Part shown: positions 5,648 to 12,695 of the stretch, one piece after another
Numbering within the stretch: the first letter of the stretch is position 1
Layout of the letters: each line of letters opens with the position of its first letter
Notes under the pieces: model-generated
Databases searched by the model: none
What the model was told of the DNA's origin: nothing
The model's input: only the letters and a program-made list of their open reading frames with translations
Source of the DNA: Dokdonia sinensis
GTDB lineage: Bacteria > Bacteroidota > Bacteroidia > Flavobacteriales > Flavobacteriaceae
Assembly (NCBI RefSeq): GCF_003688895.1
Contig: NZ_REFV01000008.1
Coordinates: forward strand, 62,001-126,000
Direction of reading: 5' to 3'
DNA: 64,000 nt
Made by a program: the position numbers and the translations under genes

Positions 5648-8068
5648 ATGAAAATAGCACTACACTTACTCTTTCTTTTCTCTTTAACCACAATGTTTGG
5701 ACAACGAGGAATCGTATCGGGCACCCTGGAGGCAGATGGTGGTCCACTCCCAGGCGCAAACGTGATTATCAAAGGTACAAGCATTGGTACTCAAACTGAT
5801 TTTGACGGCAATTATAGCATTGAGTGTCAAGTGGGCGATACGCTCCTCATCACCTTTGTAGGTTATGACACTAGAGAAGTCCTGGTAACGCCAGCGCTAT
5901 TAGGTTTTGAGGAAATTCCATACTCTGCTCCTCGTGAAGCAGTCCCGATGATTAAATCGATTGCATATAGCGATGCTGTTCAGAGAGCTAGTGACTCTTT
6001 ACATAGTATTCCCAGTCTCAACTCATCTCCTTATATGTATACTAAAAGAAATGGCTATCGGTCATTTAGAGGAATCAAGAGTATTAAACAAAGTAAGAAT
6101 ATCGTCACACTTAAATATAGCGATGGTGAATTGTATGTTGATGGAACGTACAAGGGCAGTATGCAATTGCGAACTATTACTGACAAAAACTTACCTAGCA
6201 ACGGCATAAATCCATATGCTTCTGTTTTGAGTACCAATCATAGGGTAAATACTTCTATTTGGGACAATAATATAAGAGGCGGATTGAGTTTAAATTACGG
6301 CATAGGCAATGATAATTACCTAAGCACCGTATTCCATAACGAGGGTATTTCTGCTAACTTCAATACACAAGGGTCTTATAAAATCCCGTTGCAGATTCAG
6401 CTGGGGTATAACTCGGCGACAGATAATCTGGCAAATCTTAACGGGTATCAAAATTTGCTTCTCGGTCGTCAACTTACAAACGCGCAATTTCAGGAAAATC
6501 CGCTACTAGCTTTAAATGGTAATGAAAGTATCTCGAAGAGCAAAAACTTTAGAACGGCTGTAAGTGCAGAAAAATCTTTTGGATTAGATTTCAAATTGAT
6601 AGGAACACAAAGCCTTGTGATTTCTGATAGGGATGAAGAGTACAGACTCAACGCTGGCAGTTTTGGCTATGAAAGCGATTATCGTTCAGGTAAAAGATTT
6701 AATAACCTACAGAGCAATACGGCATTGACGTTTCAGACAAATTTTGAAATTTTAAATAGCATTGGAGTAAACACAACTTCAAAAATCCAATGGCAACATT
6801 CAGAAATAGACTATGATTTTAATGAAGTGGGCAATGAAAATCCGCTCAGAACATCGCAGGAGCTCAACCAAGGTATTTTTGAAATGCAACACAATATCAA
6901 TTTAGATTATAACAATCACGTCTTCCTAAACTTGACCAATACGAGTATTGCAAGCACGCGACAAGCGGGCGCACTCCTAGTGCCCCAAGTCTCAATCTCG
7001 GCGGTACCCACGGAGATCTGGTATGGACTAGACAACGGCTTTATAGATTACATTAATGTGAGTGCTCGCTACGGCGAGACGGTGAGCGCCTCGGGACTGT
7101 TTTATGACAATTATGCTCATCAATCCTTGCTACTGGAAGACACTCAGGCTTTACAACTTCTAAATAATCGGGATTTATTTTATCCAGAAGATTTGGCTTT
7201 GGAGAGCGGTCGTTCTTTTGAGGTGGCGACGGAGTTTCGACTTTTTTACAATCGCTTAAGGCTTGGTTTTACTTACGAAAACAGAAAGGATGATCACGGT
7301 ATTTTTCCAGTACGTTTAGGTGATGGTTTTGTGTTGGATAATTTGGCAAATACTAGAACGAAAGGCTTTGACATTTCGCTAAGAACAATCAATATAAATG
7401 GATACGATGATAGTGCGAGATGGACTACTGAGGTTACGCTTTCGCGAAAGCGCACAAAAACAAGTTCCCTGCTCAACGGCTCAGACCGTGTTTCCATCGC
7501 AGGATTTTCTAATGTAAATGCAAATCTTATCCCTGGAGCTTCGGCTGGAGTTATTGTTGGAACGGCATTCGAAAGAAACGATAATGGAGTAATTGTAACC
7601 GACAGTCAAGAAAACCCAGTAATTGCCGAAGGGGTGCGCATCATAGGAGACCCGACTCCCGATTTTATTCTTGGCATCACTAATCATCTAGATATTGGTC
7701 GTTGGAATGTTGCGCTATCTGTGGATTACCAACAGGGAGGTGACATCTGGAACGGCACTCAAAAAGCGCTCAACAATTTTACAGACGCTGATGAATCTTA
7801 CGTTGAGGAGGCCACTTTCATCAACATAAAATCACTTTCGGCAACCTACGAACTTGTCGATGAGAAAAAGTGGAATAACAGCGGGCACTTGCCATTTTTT
7901 AATTCTTTTAAGATAAGTGTGTTTGCAAACAATCTTGCGACCTCTACGGCATACAGAGGCGCCACCCCTTACAGTTCGGCTTTTGACAATCAATCTGCTA
8001 TGGGAATTCAATATTTTAATACGCCACTTCAGCTAGAAACTGGCTTTTCAATCATCGCAAAAATATAA
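5648..8068 (+). CDS. SusC-like TonB outer-membrane barrel lacking a plug domain
   Basis: 806 residues with a signal peptide (MKIALHLLFLFSLTTMFGQ). A carboxypeptidase-regulatory-like domain follows at ~20-85 (GPLPGANVIIKGTS, FDGNYSI, FVGYDT). The C-terminal ~600 residues are beta-barrel in character, with SusC family features (LESGRSFEVATEFRLFYNRL, IGDPTPDFILGITNHL, FINIKSLSATYEL) and a final barrel strand. Between them I find no plug: the usual VIVxGYG, plug core and the ASATAIYGSRAANGVVxITTKKG signature are absent, replaced by ~120 unrelated residues. Full SusC proteins are about 1000 residues. The next gene begins 4 nt later and does contain a plug module, so the two probably act together. 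One exact palindrome copy encodes TLSRKR near residue 598. Confidence 0.82.
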   Translation: MKIALHLLFLFSLTTMFGQRGIVSGTLEADGGPLPGANVIIKGTSIGTQTDFDGNYSIECQVGDTLLITFVGYDTREVLVTPALLGFEEIPYSAPREAVPMIKSIAYSDAVQRASDSLHSIPSLNSSPYMYTKRNGYRSFRGIKSIKQSKNIVTLKYSDGELYVDGTYKGSMQLRTITDKNLPSNGINPYASVLSTNHRVNTSIWDNNIRGGLSLNYGIGNDNYLSTVFHNEGISANFNTQGSYKIPLQIQLGYNSATDNLANLNGYQNLLLGRQLTNAQFQENPLLALNGNESISKSKNFRTAVSAEKSFGLDFKLIGTQSLVISDRDEEYRLNAGSFGYESDYRSGKRFNNLQSNTALTFQTNFEILNSIGVNTTSKIQWQHSEIDYDFNEVGNENPLRTSQELNQGIFEMQHNINLDYNNHVFLNLTNTSIASTRQAGALLVPQVSISAVPTEIWYGLDNGFIDYINVSARYGETVSASGLFYDNYAHQSLLLEDTQALQLLNNRDLFYPEDLALESGRSFEVATEFRLFYNRLRLGFTYENRKDDHGIFPVRLGDGFVLDNLANTRTKGFDISLRTININGYDDSARWTTEVTLSRKRTKTSSLLNGSDRVSIAGFSNVNANLIPGASAGVIVGTAFERNDNGVIVTDSQENPVIAEGVRIIGDPTPDFILGITNHLDIGRWNVALSVDYQQGGDIWNGTQKALNNFTDADESYVEEATFINIKSLSATYELVDEKKWNNSGHLPFFNSFKISVFANNLATSTAYRGATPYSSAFDNQSAMGIQYFNTPLQLETGFSIIAKI
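7437..7452. repeat. Dispersed palindrome, exact copy
   Basis: CGCTTTCGCGAAAGCG inside the plugless barrel gene, read as TLSRKR in a predicted loop between barrel strands. Confidence 0.95.
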
Positions 8069-8072
8069 TTTT

Positions 8073-11000
8073 ATGAAAACTATACTTTACATCTTGCTTT
8101 TAGCTTTTGGTATTTCGATGTCCGTTTCTGCCCAGCAAGAATTGGCACAAACCAAAGCCCCAGACCGTGTAGAAAAAACCTATCTGCACACCGACCGTCC
8201 ATTTTATTTTCCGGGGGAAACGATTTGGTTCAAGGCTTACATCACAAATGCCCACCATAAAGTCACTACCCTAAGTGACGTACTTTACGTAGAACTGGTT
8301 TCGCCAGAAGGAAACGTCGTGCGCACCGATGATTATAAGATAGGTACGGGATATTCCTACGGGCAGTTCGAGCTAGATAAGAACTGGGTGGGTGGCATCT
8401 ATACTATAAAAGCCTACACAAAGTGGATGAAAAATAATGGAGAGGAGTCCTTCTTCTCTAAAAAAATCACGATACAAAAAGTAGTGCAACCTAGACTTCA
8501 AATGACCTTTGACTTCATAAAAGAAGCCTACGGTCCTGGCAGTAATGTCCAAGCCAAAGTAAAACTCGAAGACCTAGAAAACAACCTCCTTAAAAACAAG
8601 CAATGCAATTACACCCTATCTATAGACGGGAAAGTTAAAGTTACCGAACAGGGCACTACAGATAATGATGGGATGCTCTATCTCAATGTGTCCCTTCCTG
8701 AAGGTTTAAAAACAACGGACGTAATAATCAATGTGACCATACCCCACGAGGGGAATACGGAAGCTATCTCGAGAAGTGTCCCTGTGACTCTAGATAACAT
8801 TGACCTACAATTCCTTCCAGAAAGTGGAATAATGCTAGCCGATTACAAGAACACCATTGTCTTTAAAGCGCTCAATGCCTATGGAAAACCTGCAGACATT
8901 AGCGGTGTGATAAAAAACAACGCAGGTCGAGTGGTTGCAAATTTCTCGAGCTATCACAATGGGATGGGAAGTTTTGACTTAACACCTCAAGCTGGTGAAA
9001 CCTATACTGCTCATATCACCGTTCCATTTGTTTCCAAACAAACGTACGTGCTACCTGAGGCGCAGAACAACGGTATTACGATGCACCTAGAAAAAATCTC
9101 TAACAAGAAGGCAACCTTTACGATAACCGCCAGCAAGGCGTACGACATAGAATTGTGTGGAAGTGACGCGCAGGAAACGATTTTTAGCAATGGATATTCC
9201 TTGAAAAAAGGGAGTCAGCAGGTGGAGGTTCCTATTTTCGCTTTCGCGAAAGGGATTACCAAATTTACCTTACAGACCACGTCTGGAGACCATATCGCAG
9301 AGCGTCTCGCTTTTGTCCACTATGATCAAAAACTAGATATTACCATTACCCCAGACAAGGAAACCTACGGCACCCGCGAAAAAGTAGATGTGCTCATCAC
9401 CACTAAAGACCAGAATGGCAACAACGTGCCCGCAAACCTTTCGGTTGCGGTAGTGGACAATAAACTACTAAGCTTTGCCGATGACCGTCAGGATACTATA
9501 GAGTCCTATTTTCTGATGTCTAGCGAACTCCAAGGTAGTATCTACAAACCTAACTTTTACTTTAATCCAGAAGAGAAAAAAGCATCTCGAGCGCTCGATT
9601 ACGTATTGCTTACCCACGGTTGGAGATCTTATATGACTGAGAAGCCGTTTGATATTCTTGAAGCTACGCACAAACCTGAGCAACTGTATTTGCAATCTGG
9701 TATCGTAGTTAATATGAACGACAAGCCTACAAAGGCCGAACTACTTTTATTTGATGCAAACACGGACCAAGTACTTCCTTTTGCAACAGACGAGAACGGA
9801 AAGTTTATTTTTAAAATGGAACAAAGTGCATATCGTACTTTGATTGCTTACAATAATAAAGGCGACAAGTTAAAGATAAAGCTGGATCCCTCACACAATG
9901 TCCAGACTTATAATGATTTTCGCAAGAGAATAGCTGTTGAAGCCGTCGTCGAAGAAAATGAATTACAAGAAGTAAAAAAAATCGCCAGACCTAACGCAAA
10001 ACCTATCGTCCAACAAGCTCAAAAAATAACAAATGCGTCTGTTACGCTCAATGGAAGCAACACTTTAGAAGAAGTTATTGTAACTGCTCAGGGCATTAAA
10101 CGAGAAAAGAAAGCATTGGGGTATGCTGTAACAAGGGTAGAAGCAGAAGCTCTAGATGAGCCAGCTCAAGACCTTGGGAGAATGCTTCAAGGGCGTGCAC
10201 CAGGTGTAACCATAAATAATCAGGACGGAGCTTCTGGAAGTGCCTCACAAATAATAATTCGAGGCTACAGTTCTATCAACGGAAGTAATAAACCATTATT
10301 TGTCGTAGACGGTGTTCCCTTTACTGATGAAGGTAACGGTGTAGACGGCACATTATTAGATATTCAGCCAGATTCCATAGAATCTGTAAGTGTTTTAAAA
10401 GGTCTTTCGGCAACAATGCTATATGGCAGTCAGGGTCGTAATGGTGTCATCATCGTAAACACCAAAAATGATGCGTTTAAGAACAACCATTACAAGAAAA
10501 AAATAGGAGGAGCAAACTTTAAGAATTATGCTGTACAGCATTTTTACAATTATCAGTCACGCAACTTTAATAGCGCTAAGGAATTTTACATTCCTAAATA
10601 CGACAGCAAGAAATTGCCAAAAGAGCGCACAGATTTCCGCTCTACGATTTATTGGAATCCGGTCGTACAGACCGATAAAAATGGGATTGCAACTTTTGGG
10701 TACTACAATTCAGACGCCACGACATCCTTCAGCATTATTGCCGAAGGTGTGGACGCCACAGGCCAGTTAGGTCGTAAAGAACAAAGCTACAGCGTGACAA
10801 AACCATTGAGTATCGATTACAAAATGCCCGCATACCTGTCCGTAAATGACAAAGTCACGCTTGCGATTACCGTTAAAAATTCAACTACGGAAGATGTTTC
10901 GGGTGCTTTAGAGATTGAACTTGCTGATGAGTTCGCTTTCGCGAAAGCGCACAAAACCCAAAAAACCACCATTCCTGCCAATGGATTTAAAGTCATCCCA

Positions 11001-12695
11001 GTAACCGTTATTCCAAAGCAACAGGTGGTTGATGCATTATTAAGTGTAAATTTTATAACTGACACTTATAGCGATTTCTTAACCCGAAAAGCAACGATTA
11101 TAAGTCCATATTTCCCGACGCAAATATCTATTTCTGGAGCCAAAAGCGAGCAGTACGTTGTGGATATTAACAACATAGTTGATAGCTCACTAGAAGCAGA
11201 CTTTACCGTTTACACAGACATCGTGGGTGACGTGATGAATGGTATTGAGTCACTCATAAGAAAACCTTCCGGTTGTTTTGAGCAGACCTCATCAAGCACC
11301 TATCCCAACATTATGGTACTCAAGTACCTAAAAGAATCTGGCAAATCGAACACCGACATCGAGCAAAAAGCCTTAGGTTTTATCGCCGAAGGGTATAAGA
11401 GACTGATTTCATTTGAAACAAAAGAAGGCGGGTTTGAATGGTTCGGAAAAACCCCACCGCACGAAACGCTCACGGCTTACGGCATTCTGGAGTTTACCGA
11501 AATGAAAGAAGTGTATCCAGAAGTGAGTCAGAAAATGATAGACCGCACCGTACAATGGTTAATGAGCAGAAGAGATGGTGAAGGCGGATTTTATAAAAGT
11601 CAAAGAGGATACGACAGTTTTGCAAGTAGTCCGGAGGACGTAGCAAACGCTTATATCGTGTATGCCTTGAGTACTTCAAAAGTGGACGTAAATCTAGACA
11701 AGGAATATCAAACTGCACTAGCCAATGCACTTAACAGCAACGACAGCTATAAACTTGCACTTATGGCTAGAGCTTCAAAAGCACTCAACAAAATGAGCGA
11801 TTATGAGAAGCTGATGACAGTAATAAAAGCGAATATTTCTGAGTATTCGTTTGATAAATTACCTGTAAAAAACACGATTACTCGTTCTTACGGCAATGAC
11901 AAACAGACGGAGACCCTAGCTTTTACCATTCTCGCATTGTTGATGGAAGATAATCGAGACGATGCCCTTATCGCGCAGGCAGTAGAACAGCTTTTACTGG
12001 CCCGCCGTCACGGAACCTTTGGGTCTACACAGGCAACAGCAATGTCACTTAAAGCACTCATCGAATACACCAAAACGCAAAAACAAAAGCTCGTACAGTC
12101 TAAAGATACTGTGACCTTGGTTATTAATGGCAAAAACCTAAAAAATACGCTTACCATTTCAGACAATGGAAAAGTCCAGATTGCAGGGATTGCAAAATAT
12201 CTCAAGGAGGGAAAAAACACCATCGGTATTCAATTTTCTAATGCAGAAAATACGTTCCCATACGGCCTCGACCTTAACTGGAAGAGCACGCTACCCACTT
12301 CGACAAGTGATTGTCCGCTGGAGCTTGAAACGGTCATTGGGGACTCGGCAATTGCGGTTGGAGATAACCTGAGAATGACCACAAAGGTTACCAATTTAAA
12401 AAATGATGGTCTTGGAATGGTAACCGCCATCATCGGACTTCCCTCTGGTGCGAGTGCACAGCCATGGCAACTCAAGGAACTTATCGAAACAAACAAAGTT
12501 GCCTTCTACGAAGTTTTTGACAATAACATTGTTTTGTACTGGCGCTCCTTCGAGCCTAGCGAATCCAAAGTCATCAACCTAGATTTAAAAGCCGAAGTTT
12601 CGGGAGATTACACCGCTCCGGCTAGTTGTGCATATTTATACTATGGAGAGGAATTTAAAATTTGGAAGAAAGGGGTTACTGCTAGTATTCAGTAG
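8073..12695 (+). CDS. Thioester alpha-2-macroglobulin with an embedded TonB plug domain
   Basis: 1540 residues with a type I signal peptide (ends ...SVSAQQ) and no lipobox. Residues ~35-130 are the Bacteroidota MG2 type (TYLHTDRPFYFPGETIWFKAY), followed by further macroglobulin domains. A carboxypeptidase-regulatory-like module (~545-615) is followed by a TonB plug at ~660-795: LEEVIVTAQGIKREKKALGY, LQGRAPGVTINNQ, IIIRGYSSINGSNKPLFVVDGVP, SVLKGLSATMLYGSQGRNGVIIVNTKN. The thioester domain follows, with GCFEQ at C1068-Q1071, then the alpha/alpha-toroid and a C-terminal receptor-binding-like domain. Macroglobulins trap proteases covalently via the thioester. The plug implies docking at an outer-membrane barrel, and the plugless barrel upstream is the obvious candidate. 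Palindrome copies lie at 9239 and 10934. Confidence 0.88.
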   Translation: MKTILYILLLAFGISMSVSAQQELAQTKAPDRVEKTYLHTDRPFYFPGETIWFKAYITNAHHKVTTLSDVLYVELVSPEGNVVRTDDYKIGTGYSYGQFELDKNWVGGIYTIKAYTKWMKNNGEESFFSKKITIQKVVQPRLQMTFDFIKEAYGPGSNVQAKVKLEDLENNLLKNKQCNYTLSIDGKVKVTEQGTTDNDGMLYLNVSLPEGLKTTDVIINVTIPHEGNTEAISRSVPVTLDNIDLQFLPESGIMLADYKNTIVFKALNAYGKPADISGVIKNNAGRVVANFSSYHNGMGSFDLTPQAGETYTAHITVPFVSKQTYVLPEAQNNGITMHLEKISNKKATFTITASKAYDIELCGSDAQETIFSNGYSLKKGSQQVEVPIFAFAKGITKFTLQTTSGDHIAERLAFVHYDQKLDITITPDKETYGTREKVDVLITTKDQNGNNVPANLSVAVVDNKLLSFADDRQDTIESYFLMSSELQGSIYKPNFYFNPEEKKASRALDYVLLTHGWRSYMTEKPFDILEATHKPEQLYLQSGIVVNMNDKPTKAELLLFDANTDQVLPFATDENGKFIFKMEQSAYRTLIAYNNKGDKLKIKLDPSHNVQTYNDFRKRIAVEAVVEENELQEVKKIARPNAKPIVQQAQKITNASVTLNGSNTLEEVIVTAQGIKREKKALGYAVTRVEAEALDEPAQDLGRMLQGRAPGVTINNQDGASGSASQIIIRGYSSINGSNKPLFVVDGVPFTDEGNGVDGTLLDIQPDSIESVSVLKGLSATMLYGSQGRNGVIIVNTKNDAFKNNHYKKKIGGANFKNYAVQHFYNYQSRNFNSAKEFYIPKYDSKKLPKERTDFRSTIYWNPVVQTDKNGIATFGYYNSDATTSFSIIAEGVDATGQLGRKEQSYSVTKPLSIDYKMPAYLSVNDKVTLAITVKNSTTEDVSGALEIELADEFAFAKAHKTQKTTIPANGFKVIPVTVIPKQQVVDALLSVNFITDTYSDFLTRKATIISPYFPTQISISGAKSEQYVVDINNIVDSSLEADFTVYTDIVGDVMNGIESLIRKPSGCFEQTSSSTYPNIMVLKYLKESGKSNTDIEQKALGFIAEGYKRLISFETKEGGFEWFGKTPPHETLTAYGILEFTEMKEVYPEVSQKMIDRTVQWLMSRRDGEGGFYKSQRGYDSFASSPEDVANAYIVYALSTSKVDVNLDKEYQTALANALNSNDSYKLALMARASKALNKMSDYEKLMTVIKANISEYSFDKLPVKNTITRSYGNDKQTETLAFTILALLMEDNRDDALIAQAVEQLLLARRHGTFGSTQATAMSLKALIEYTKTQKQKLVQSKDTVTLVINGKNLKNTLTISDNGKVQIAGIAKYLKEGKNTIGIQFSNAENTFPYGLDLNWKSTLPTSTSDCPLELETVIGDSAIAVGDNLRMTTKVTNLKNDGLGMVTAIIGLPSGASAQPWQLKELIETNKVAFYEVFDNNIVLYWRSFEPSESKVINLDLKAEVSGDYTAPASCAYLYYGEEFKIWKKGVTASIQ
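9239..9254. repeat. Dispersed palindrome, 15/16 match
   Basis: CGCTTTCGCGAAAGGG inside the macroglobulin gene, read as AFAK. Confidence 0.85.
10934..10949. repeat. Dispersed palindrome, exact copy
   Basis: Second copy in the macroglobulin gene, read as AFAKA, between a macroglobulin domain strand and the HKTQKTTIP segment. Confidence 0.95.

Follow-up and report, generated by a model that had tools for sequence, protein, structure and literature searches.

The window, a 64,000-nucleotide (nt) stretch of the Dokdonia sinensis genome (contig NZ_REFV01000008.1, positions 62,001 to 126,000 of the forward strand), contains two adjacent genes that very likely encode a single TonB-dependent outer-membrane receptor, with the pore on one protein and the plug on the other. 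An open reading frame (ORF) at 5648-8068 (+) encodes a SusC-type outer-membrane barrel protein of 806 amino acids (aa) that has no plug, as judged by Pfam, NCBIfam, AlphaFold2 and Foldseek. A second ORF on the same strand (8073-12695, +), separated from the first by 4 nt, encodes a 1540-aa thioester macroglobulin with a TonB plug, identified by Pfam, Foldseek and its thioester residues. The split-receptor reading is well supported by sequence comparison, which shows complementary anatomy, near-obligate pairing within the thioester family, joint decay in a few genomes, SusC-type plugs and purifying selection. Physical docking of the plug in the barrel is strongly suggested, and indirect hints of coupling come from the location of the plug near the bait site, from a TonB-box-like motif present on most macroglobulins and on no barrels, and from an extracytoplasmic function (ECF) sigma factor operon in one family of relatives.

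Anatomy of the barrel protein and the macroglobulin

The barrel protein begins with a carboxypeptidase-D regulatory-like domain, the N-terminal extension of SusC proteins (residues 20-84, 5705-5899, +; CarbopepD_reg_2, PF13715, at 28-81). This is followed by a barrel-family-specific linker that replaces the plug (residues 85-162, 5900-6133, +) and by a SusC-like β-barrel (residues 163-806, 6134-8065, +). No Pfam Plug match was found at E<=1, either in this protein or among the matches listed for 50 aligned barrels that include it, which cover 25 of the 28 matched families, the remaining ones each matching at most one member. The NCBIfam SusC/RagA family match of the window barrel scores 124.7 bits, below the cut-off of 368.25, and its best stretch starts at profile position 327, past the plug. 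SusC family TIGR04056 is matched at E<=0.01 by 48 of the 50 barrels, which are a subset of a 70-row barrel alignment, and the PF13715 domain was found in 36 of them; an ordinary plug-bearing SusC (ORF L114:14885) was excluded from both alignments. The AlphaFold2 model built on the 70 rows and judged by DSSP and per-residue confidence (pLDDT) has a mean pLDDT of 86.4 and a β-barrel from about residue 163, and its best solved match in Foldseek is the SusC protein BT2264 (5fq6, E 7e-37). Residues 85-162 are mostly modeled at low confidence, with an order of elements that is not plug-like. A hidden or degenerate plug in residues 85-210 was considered and found no support in Pfam (50 members), in a local iterated plug profile or in AlphaFold2.

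The regulatory domain, linker and barrel of the window protein all have their closest matches within the plugless-barrel family; for the regulatory domain the nearest sequences are other plugless barrels, at about 62-71% identity among the matches listed. In a FastTree phylogeny, a branch with full support separates 77 plugless barrels from 11 SusC barrels. Some plug-bearing SusCs nonetheless have barrels that score high against the plugless family, namely L290:4133-7285 from genome G185 (E 1.8e-173) and those of L245 and L246 (about 1e-133), and these are candidate relatives of the ancestral one-piece receptor. The window itself also holds an ordinary plug-bearing SusC, from 36953 onward on the + strand (own-genome match C42:98983).

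The macroglobulin supplies what the barrel protein lacks. Its N-terminal macroglobulin (MG) domains (residues 27-540, 8151-9692, +; MG2 at 36-122) are followed by an insert that opens with a regulatory-like β domain (residues 535-612, 9675-9908, +), recognized from its AlphaFold2 strands; this domain has no Pfam match in the window protein, and in a relative, L051, PF13620 matches below its cut-off (E 2.8e-4). A linker predicted to be disordered comes next (residues 613-663, 9909-10061, +; pLDDT 25-41 over model residues 582-659) and is a candidate protease-sensitive stretch. The TonB-box-like motif LEEVIV and a complete SusC plug occupy residues 664-800 (10062-10472, +), with the Pfam Plug match (PF07715) at 680-792 (E 2.1e-18). 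Behind the insert lie an A2M domain of MG7 type (PF00207, residues 858-945, 10644-10907, +), the thioester domain (TED; PF07678, E 1.4e-30, residues 1045-1332, 11205-12068, +) and a receptor-binding or C-terminal MG domain (A2M_recep, PF07677, E 2.5e-4, residues 1448-1519, 12414-12629, +). The GCFEQ thioester motif (G1067-C1068-F1069-E1070-Q1071, 11271-11285, +) has the form GCxEQ in all 137 non-redundant relatives, and the putative thioester-trap activity is assigned from this motif and the TED. The AlphaFold2 model of residues 27-1040 (pLDDT 79.6) matches C3, CD109, A2M and ECAM in Foldseek. A preliminary description of this stretch had recognized a SusC-like protein at 5648 with a regulatory domain and a barrel and no plug, and 4 nt downstream a thioester macroglobulin with GCFEQ and a full plug; domain matches and models bear out both halves of that description, every plug motif it quoted is present, and the structure prediction it had called for in residues 85-210 of the barrel revealed no plug, in agreement with the profiles.

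Searches of solved structures locate the border between the two parts. Residues 655-801 of the macroglobulin match residues 12-170 of BT2264 chain 5fq6_B (E 5e-26), and the barrel side, as a profile of 70 sequences, aligns with residues 159-984 of that chain (E 1.7e-54), so that by sequence the two proteins together add up to one receptor, split at the border of plug and barrel. The plug appears to sit at or near the bait-region position of the macroglobulin. Residue 852 aligns to residue 732 of human A2M (6tav), around which we take the human bait region to lie. In the window protein the bait position ahead of the MG7-type domain is filled by the inserted module with its predicted disordered linker, and the sole bait-region-domain (BRD) match is weak and overlaps MG2 (38-164). 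In L051 the plug (685-782) lies between a weak BRD match (415-462, E 1e-4) and the A2M domain PF00207 (844-931).

Our own motif scan found a TonB-box-like motif ahead of the plug in 88 of 100 macroglobulins, most of the 12 misses being near variants, and in none of 96 barrels. A lipobox-like motif was found by the same kind of scan in only 3 of 99 macroglobulins. The macroglobulin of a same-genus relative (G011) is near-identical to that of the window; two other relatives (L080, L109) have split macroglobulin frames, and at one locus a second thioester-half fragment downstream of a complete pair (L103:16632-16961) is likely a duplicate remnant. The plug site is occupied differently in plug-free relatives. 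By eye, L130 and L139 have a regulatory-like domain and an acidic linker there, and others have a TonB C-terminal domain, matched by PF03544 in L136:162-5201 (E 6e-13) and L242:1543-6381 (E 4e-19) and assigned by eye in L111:3-3146, whose sequence seeded a local profile. Two different parts of the TonB system thus share one site, and L242, the sole macroglobulin of the TonB-domain type with a readable upstream region, has no barrel upstream.

Co-occurrence of the plug and the plugless barrel

Relatives were drawn from a scan of one genome per species across 84,980 species, from which the best 80 of 551 loci were taken, and from order- and phylum-wide draws; one follow-up search of the scan loci named 50 of the 80, with L107 outside its coverage. 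The resulting 159 macroglobulin rows were reduced to 147 by dropping 12 whose thioester-half match was shorter than 600 residues (eleven remote macroglobulins of 1647-1830 aa without plug or upstream barrel, and the second half of the split L109), to 137 by removing 10 near-duplicates (97%), and to 125 by setting aside 12 with an unreadable upstream region (7 with a plug, 3 with none and 2 with a TonB domain). A plugless barrel lies directly upstream of 91 of the 94 plug-bearing macroglobulins in this set and of 0 of the 31 without a plug, leaving 3 with a plug and no adjacent barrel, 31 with neither and none with a barrel and no plug. The 91 include the split gene L080, labeled as plug-bearing by hand, as its first half has the plug and the upstream barrel. 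With no rows dropped, an upstream barrel accompanies 0 of 53 plug-free rows, two of which are the second halves of L080 and L109, whose first halves have plug and barrel. The gap between the two genes has a median of 4 nt (90 pairs).

Surveys of whole genomes yielded the same association. In 98 other genomes, with five candidates scored per genome, at least six full-length relatives were found, and the six listed all have the barrel directly upstream. Among 392 genomes of the phylum, with the two best candidates scored per genome for barrel and macroglobulin alike, a plugless-type barrel match was found in four (G000, in pieces, G319, G087 and G118). Thioester macroglobulins at E<=1e-30 were found in 15 of the genomes; a plug-bearing one occurs in exactly those four, and the remaining eleven are plug-free. 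The plugless class is defined here by a match covering the N-terminal part of the family, and the remaining barrel matches, assigned by that rule rather than by single inspection for a plug, begin past the plug position in frames longer than 1000 aa except for one fragment (G231). Of 31 genomes chosen for a plug-free macroglobulin, 28 have no such barrel at E<=1e-70 among at most 28 candidates scored, and the other 3 also hold a plug-bearing macroglobulin; 13 other barrel matches in these genomes have plugs of their own. Within single genomes the contrast recurs: G941, G849 and G736 each encode a macroglobulin with plug and barrel and a second one that, by local profile, has neither.

The departures from adjacency are few. 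At L220 the plugless barrel is directly downstream of the macroglobulin. At L212 the plug has decayed and no plugless barrel was found in the genome. The close relatives L207 and L208 have decayed plugs (E 2e-3 and 3e-4), and just upstream only a 129-aa frame matches the N-terminus of the barrel family. Plug-barrel pairing in the thioester family therefore appears near-obligate across Bacteroidota, and the genome survey proposed in the preliminary description recovers the pair across the phylum with few, explainable exceptions; chance adjacency is ruled out by the survey. The barrel cluster spans 97 loci, compared with 15 for the next neighbor cluster. Neighbor clustering, with Pfam scans of a few named neighbors and no profile search aimed at SusD, revealed no third gene recurring widely beside the pair; a divergent SusD may lie nearby.

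Origin and constraint of the macroglobulin plug

By sequence, the plug and the barrel are both under purifying selection, with a dN/dS of 0.07-0.31 for the plug in 13 of the 15 pairs where it could be computed. Macroglobulin plugs do not descend as a unit: a single clade was rejected by the approximately unbiased (AU) test (p 0.0008; 24 vs 16 rows), applied to 40 of 108 rows picked after a quick tree had been seen, the plug trees having 132-141 columns. The plugs of the window, of three same-genus relatives and of the flavobacterium L108 group with six SusC plugs (support 100/98; member rows as in the quick tree), and the window plug is nearer to SusC plugs of its genus (about 60% identity) than to most macroglobulin plugs. 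The macroglobulin plug thus appears to have been exchanged with SusC plugs, and a plug acquired from a working SusC receptor and then retained probably still works as one. Identities to C23 of 61% for the barrel's regulatory domain and 54% for the macroglobulin plug had suggested that a single resident SusC gave rise to both; this was dropped for the regulatory domain, whose nearest relatives are those of plugless barrels, and retained for the plug. Plug divergence tracks that of the barrel more than divergence in the remaining macroglobulin would explain, with a partial r of 0.34 (p 0.03) over 43 disjoint pairs from which the four window-clade pairs are excluded, and the controls within the macroglobulin are not significant.

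Several observations weigh against the split-receptor reading. Covariation of the rates is modest, and in the 39 closer pairs r is 0.32, with p 0.045 by Pearson and 0.057 by Spearman. In the macroglobulin model, order is poor across the plug (block pLDDT 25-70), which fits a domain modeled without its barrel, yet proves nothing. In one genome (L237) the plug-bearing macroglobulin and the plugless barrel are on different contigs. L201, from G736, has a partial Pfam Plug (E 1e-6) and no adjacent barrel, the plugless barrel of that genome lying beside another macroglobulin. Nine shorter macroglobulin-like proteins that lack a thioester domain were examined; three have partial plug matches (L041, L057:4864-8838 and L060:3926-6367), and none of the 9 fetched loci has such a barrel, which limits the pairing rule to the thioester family. 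On a FastTree tree with some long branches, the plug changed state at least 2 times and the barrel at least 4, giving 2 independent pairs only, too few for a phylogenetically independent pairs test to have power. As the labels are clustered on the tree, the count of 125 represents far fewer independent events, and greater weight falls on the joint decays and the unlinked pair than on the raw total.

Proposed mechanism, alternatives and known systems

A TonB plug begins and ends on the periplasmic side and can therefore be inserted as a loop of a periplasmic protein and dock into a barrel from below; docked in this way, the macroglobulin would shut the pore and would itself be kept at the inner face of the outer membrane. 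In the mechanism that we propose, the pore would come from the barrel protein, along with the N-terminal regulatory domain; the macroglobulin would be a thioester protease trap, presumably periplasmic, with the TonB box and plug in its bait-region loop. Most likely, the trap sits in the periplasm and its plug loop docks it beneath the outer membrane. Contact of a protease with the linker or plug loop would set off the trap and either dislodge the plug or fix it in place, TonB would act on the box of the macroglobulin, and coupling of trap state to pore state would make the pore a guarded gate. That a protease cut or a TonB pull couples pore and trap in this manner we infer. In macroglobulins, a cut in the disordered bait region acts as the trigger and sets the thioester domain free (PMC4498604). 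The SusC protein BT1763 requires its TonB box and no longer supports growth on levan once its N-terminal domain is gone; in vitro, its plug is able to leave the barrel (PMC7782687).

A bolder form of the proposal, which we offer tentatively as possible rather than probable, is a complement-like covalent trap wired to a TonB gate: with the plug in the bait loop, a protease cut or a TonB pull would each free the thioester domain at the pore mouth, where it would capture the entrant, and in some relatives an inner-membrane plug protein controlling an ECF sigma factor would sense the emptied barrel. The preliminary description had likewise proposed a split receptor, and its supporting points hold, in that residues 85-210 of the barrel contain no plug and the genes co-occur; that the plug fills this particular barrel is inferred. 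For its second suggestion, that a cut in the trap would alter the pore or signal through TonB, the indirect hints of coupling are those named at the outset.

A plug that serves as an anchor only, fixing a periplasmic protease trap below the outer membrane without TonB gating or transport through the barrel, is a fairly unlikely alternative. An anchor of another kind is made plausible by the scarcity of the lipobox-like motif (3 of 99 macroglobulins), unlike the inner-membrane-anchored ECAM (PMC4498604). However, a mere anchor is at odds with retention of the TonB-box-like motif in 88 of 100 macroglobulins, with purifying selection on plug and barrel, and with the regulatory domain that most barrels keep (36 of 50).

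It is unlikely, though not implausible, that the barrel is a signaling receptor and the macroglobulin a trans-envelope sensor, with release of the plug letting that of an inner-membrane anti-sigma-like protein engage and free an ECF sigma factor. This arrangement draws on family f5, in which the upstream end was read in 10 of 15 loci (L051, L155, L157 and L291-L297). In all 10, the plugless barrel and plug-macroglobulin are preceded by an ECF sigma gene and then a plug-match protein that has a single hydrophobic stretch close to its N-terminus (sigma and plug-protein stretches at L051:2860-8541, L157:565-4920 and L155:6016-10513), an operon that thus has two plug proteins for one plugless barrel. 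The upstream plug protein is 328-891 aa long as called, with a partial plug match in L155 and L157; that of L051, the only one scanned with Pfam, has a VWA domain and a type IX secretion system (T9SS) tail. An extra gene of about 635 aa lies between the plug protein and the barrel in 6 of the 10. The L201 macroglobulin (L201:1859-7057) also has a sigma-factor gene directly upstream and combines a partial Plug with an extra N-terminus that is anti-sigma-like by eye; it is possibly a one-protein sensor. Elsewhere, a 156-aa protein with two partial plug-like matches (L141:1623-2093) lies just upstream of a plugless barrel, near a sigma-like gene. Against signaling as a general function, four sigma queries found a sigma-like gene at only 7 plug-macroglobulin loci, which include neither the window nor most pairs of Flavobacteriaceae, and the anti-sigma label reflects an N-terminal layout judged by eye, with no family match.

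There is little likelihood that the macroglobulin plug serves other barrels, or TonB alone, beside a neighboring barrel that is an unrelated open pore. The closeness of the window plug to SusC plugs of the genus would fit such a role, as would the shorter macroglobulin-like proteins that have partial plugs and no such barrel nearby. Within the thioester family, by contrast, plug and plugless barrel occur and decay jointly, once even when unlinked, and a large unplugged pore in the outer membrane would be costly. A secretion device in which the barrel exports or displays the macroglobulin, with the plug as a parking or release element, is very improbable: the phylum does offer a precedent for a plug in trans in the T9SS barrel SprA, an outer-membrane barrel of Bacteroidota closed by the separate protein Plug, but the window macroglobulin has no T9SS tail in Pfam, and its plug is of TonB/SusC type, retained with a TonB-box-like motif. 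A sequencing, assembly or gene-calling artefact, or a chance meeting of broken genes, can be dismissed, as the two relatives with split macroglobulin frames are all that would speak for it against about 90 non-redundant pairs from many assemblies with a median gap of 4 nt and purifying selection.

Among the listed matches from 5.39 million open-access papers, subscription papers and bioRxiv being largely outside that scope, we found no description of a pair of macroglobulin and plugless barrel, and the preliminary description likewise knew of none. Both halves belong to known families; in that literature we found neither a receptor with its plug on another protein nor a macroglobulin docked to a barrel. 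If docking is true, a TonB-dependent receptor can consist of more than one polypeptide, with its gate on a protein that has an activity of its own, and this macroglobulin family would be stationed at the outer membrane, where TonB energy is available to it. The pair would be a model for the sensing of pore entry by a bacterial protease trap and, if the covalent trap-gate reading is also true, an outer-membrane immune checkpoint; we know of none comparable. As the plug is supplied in trans, the pair is a natural system for swapping, deleting and mixing plug, TonB box and barrel separately.

Among known systems, the T9SS pair of SprA and Plug differs in that its plug and barrel types are unrelated to those described here and it is not known to be TonB-dependent. 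The type II macroglobulin MagD of P. aeruginosa resembles the window macroglobulin in having operon partners in the periplasm (MagA, MagB and MagF), but MagD has no thioester, and the accessible part of the source mentions no plug or barrel (PMC5764988). Type I bacterial macroglobulins (E. coli ECAM/YfhM and Salmonella SaA2M) share the MG domains, the thioester motif, the TED and the C-terminal MG domain, although the C-terminal half of the window protein matches CD109 and human A2M better than ECAM. Bacterial macroglobulins such as ECAM are anchored in the inner membrane (PMC4498604), whereas 96 of 99 macroglobulins here have no lipobox-like motif. At the bait position there are a regulatory-like domain, a TonB box and a plug. 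The partner also differs, being an outer-membrane barrel here, whereas type I genes often neighbor PBP1c, adjoining it in a number of bacteria (PMC5764988). The SusC/RagA transporters (BT2264, BT1763 and RagA) share with the pair the barrel fold, the N-terminal regulatory domain, the TonB-box-like motif and the plug, BT2264 being the best solved match. Unlike these transporters, the window pair has the plug and the TonB-box-like motif on a second protein.

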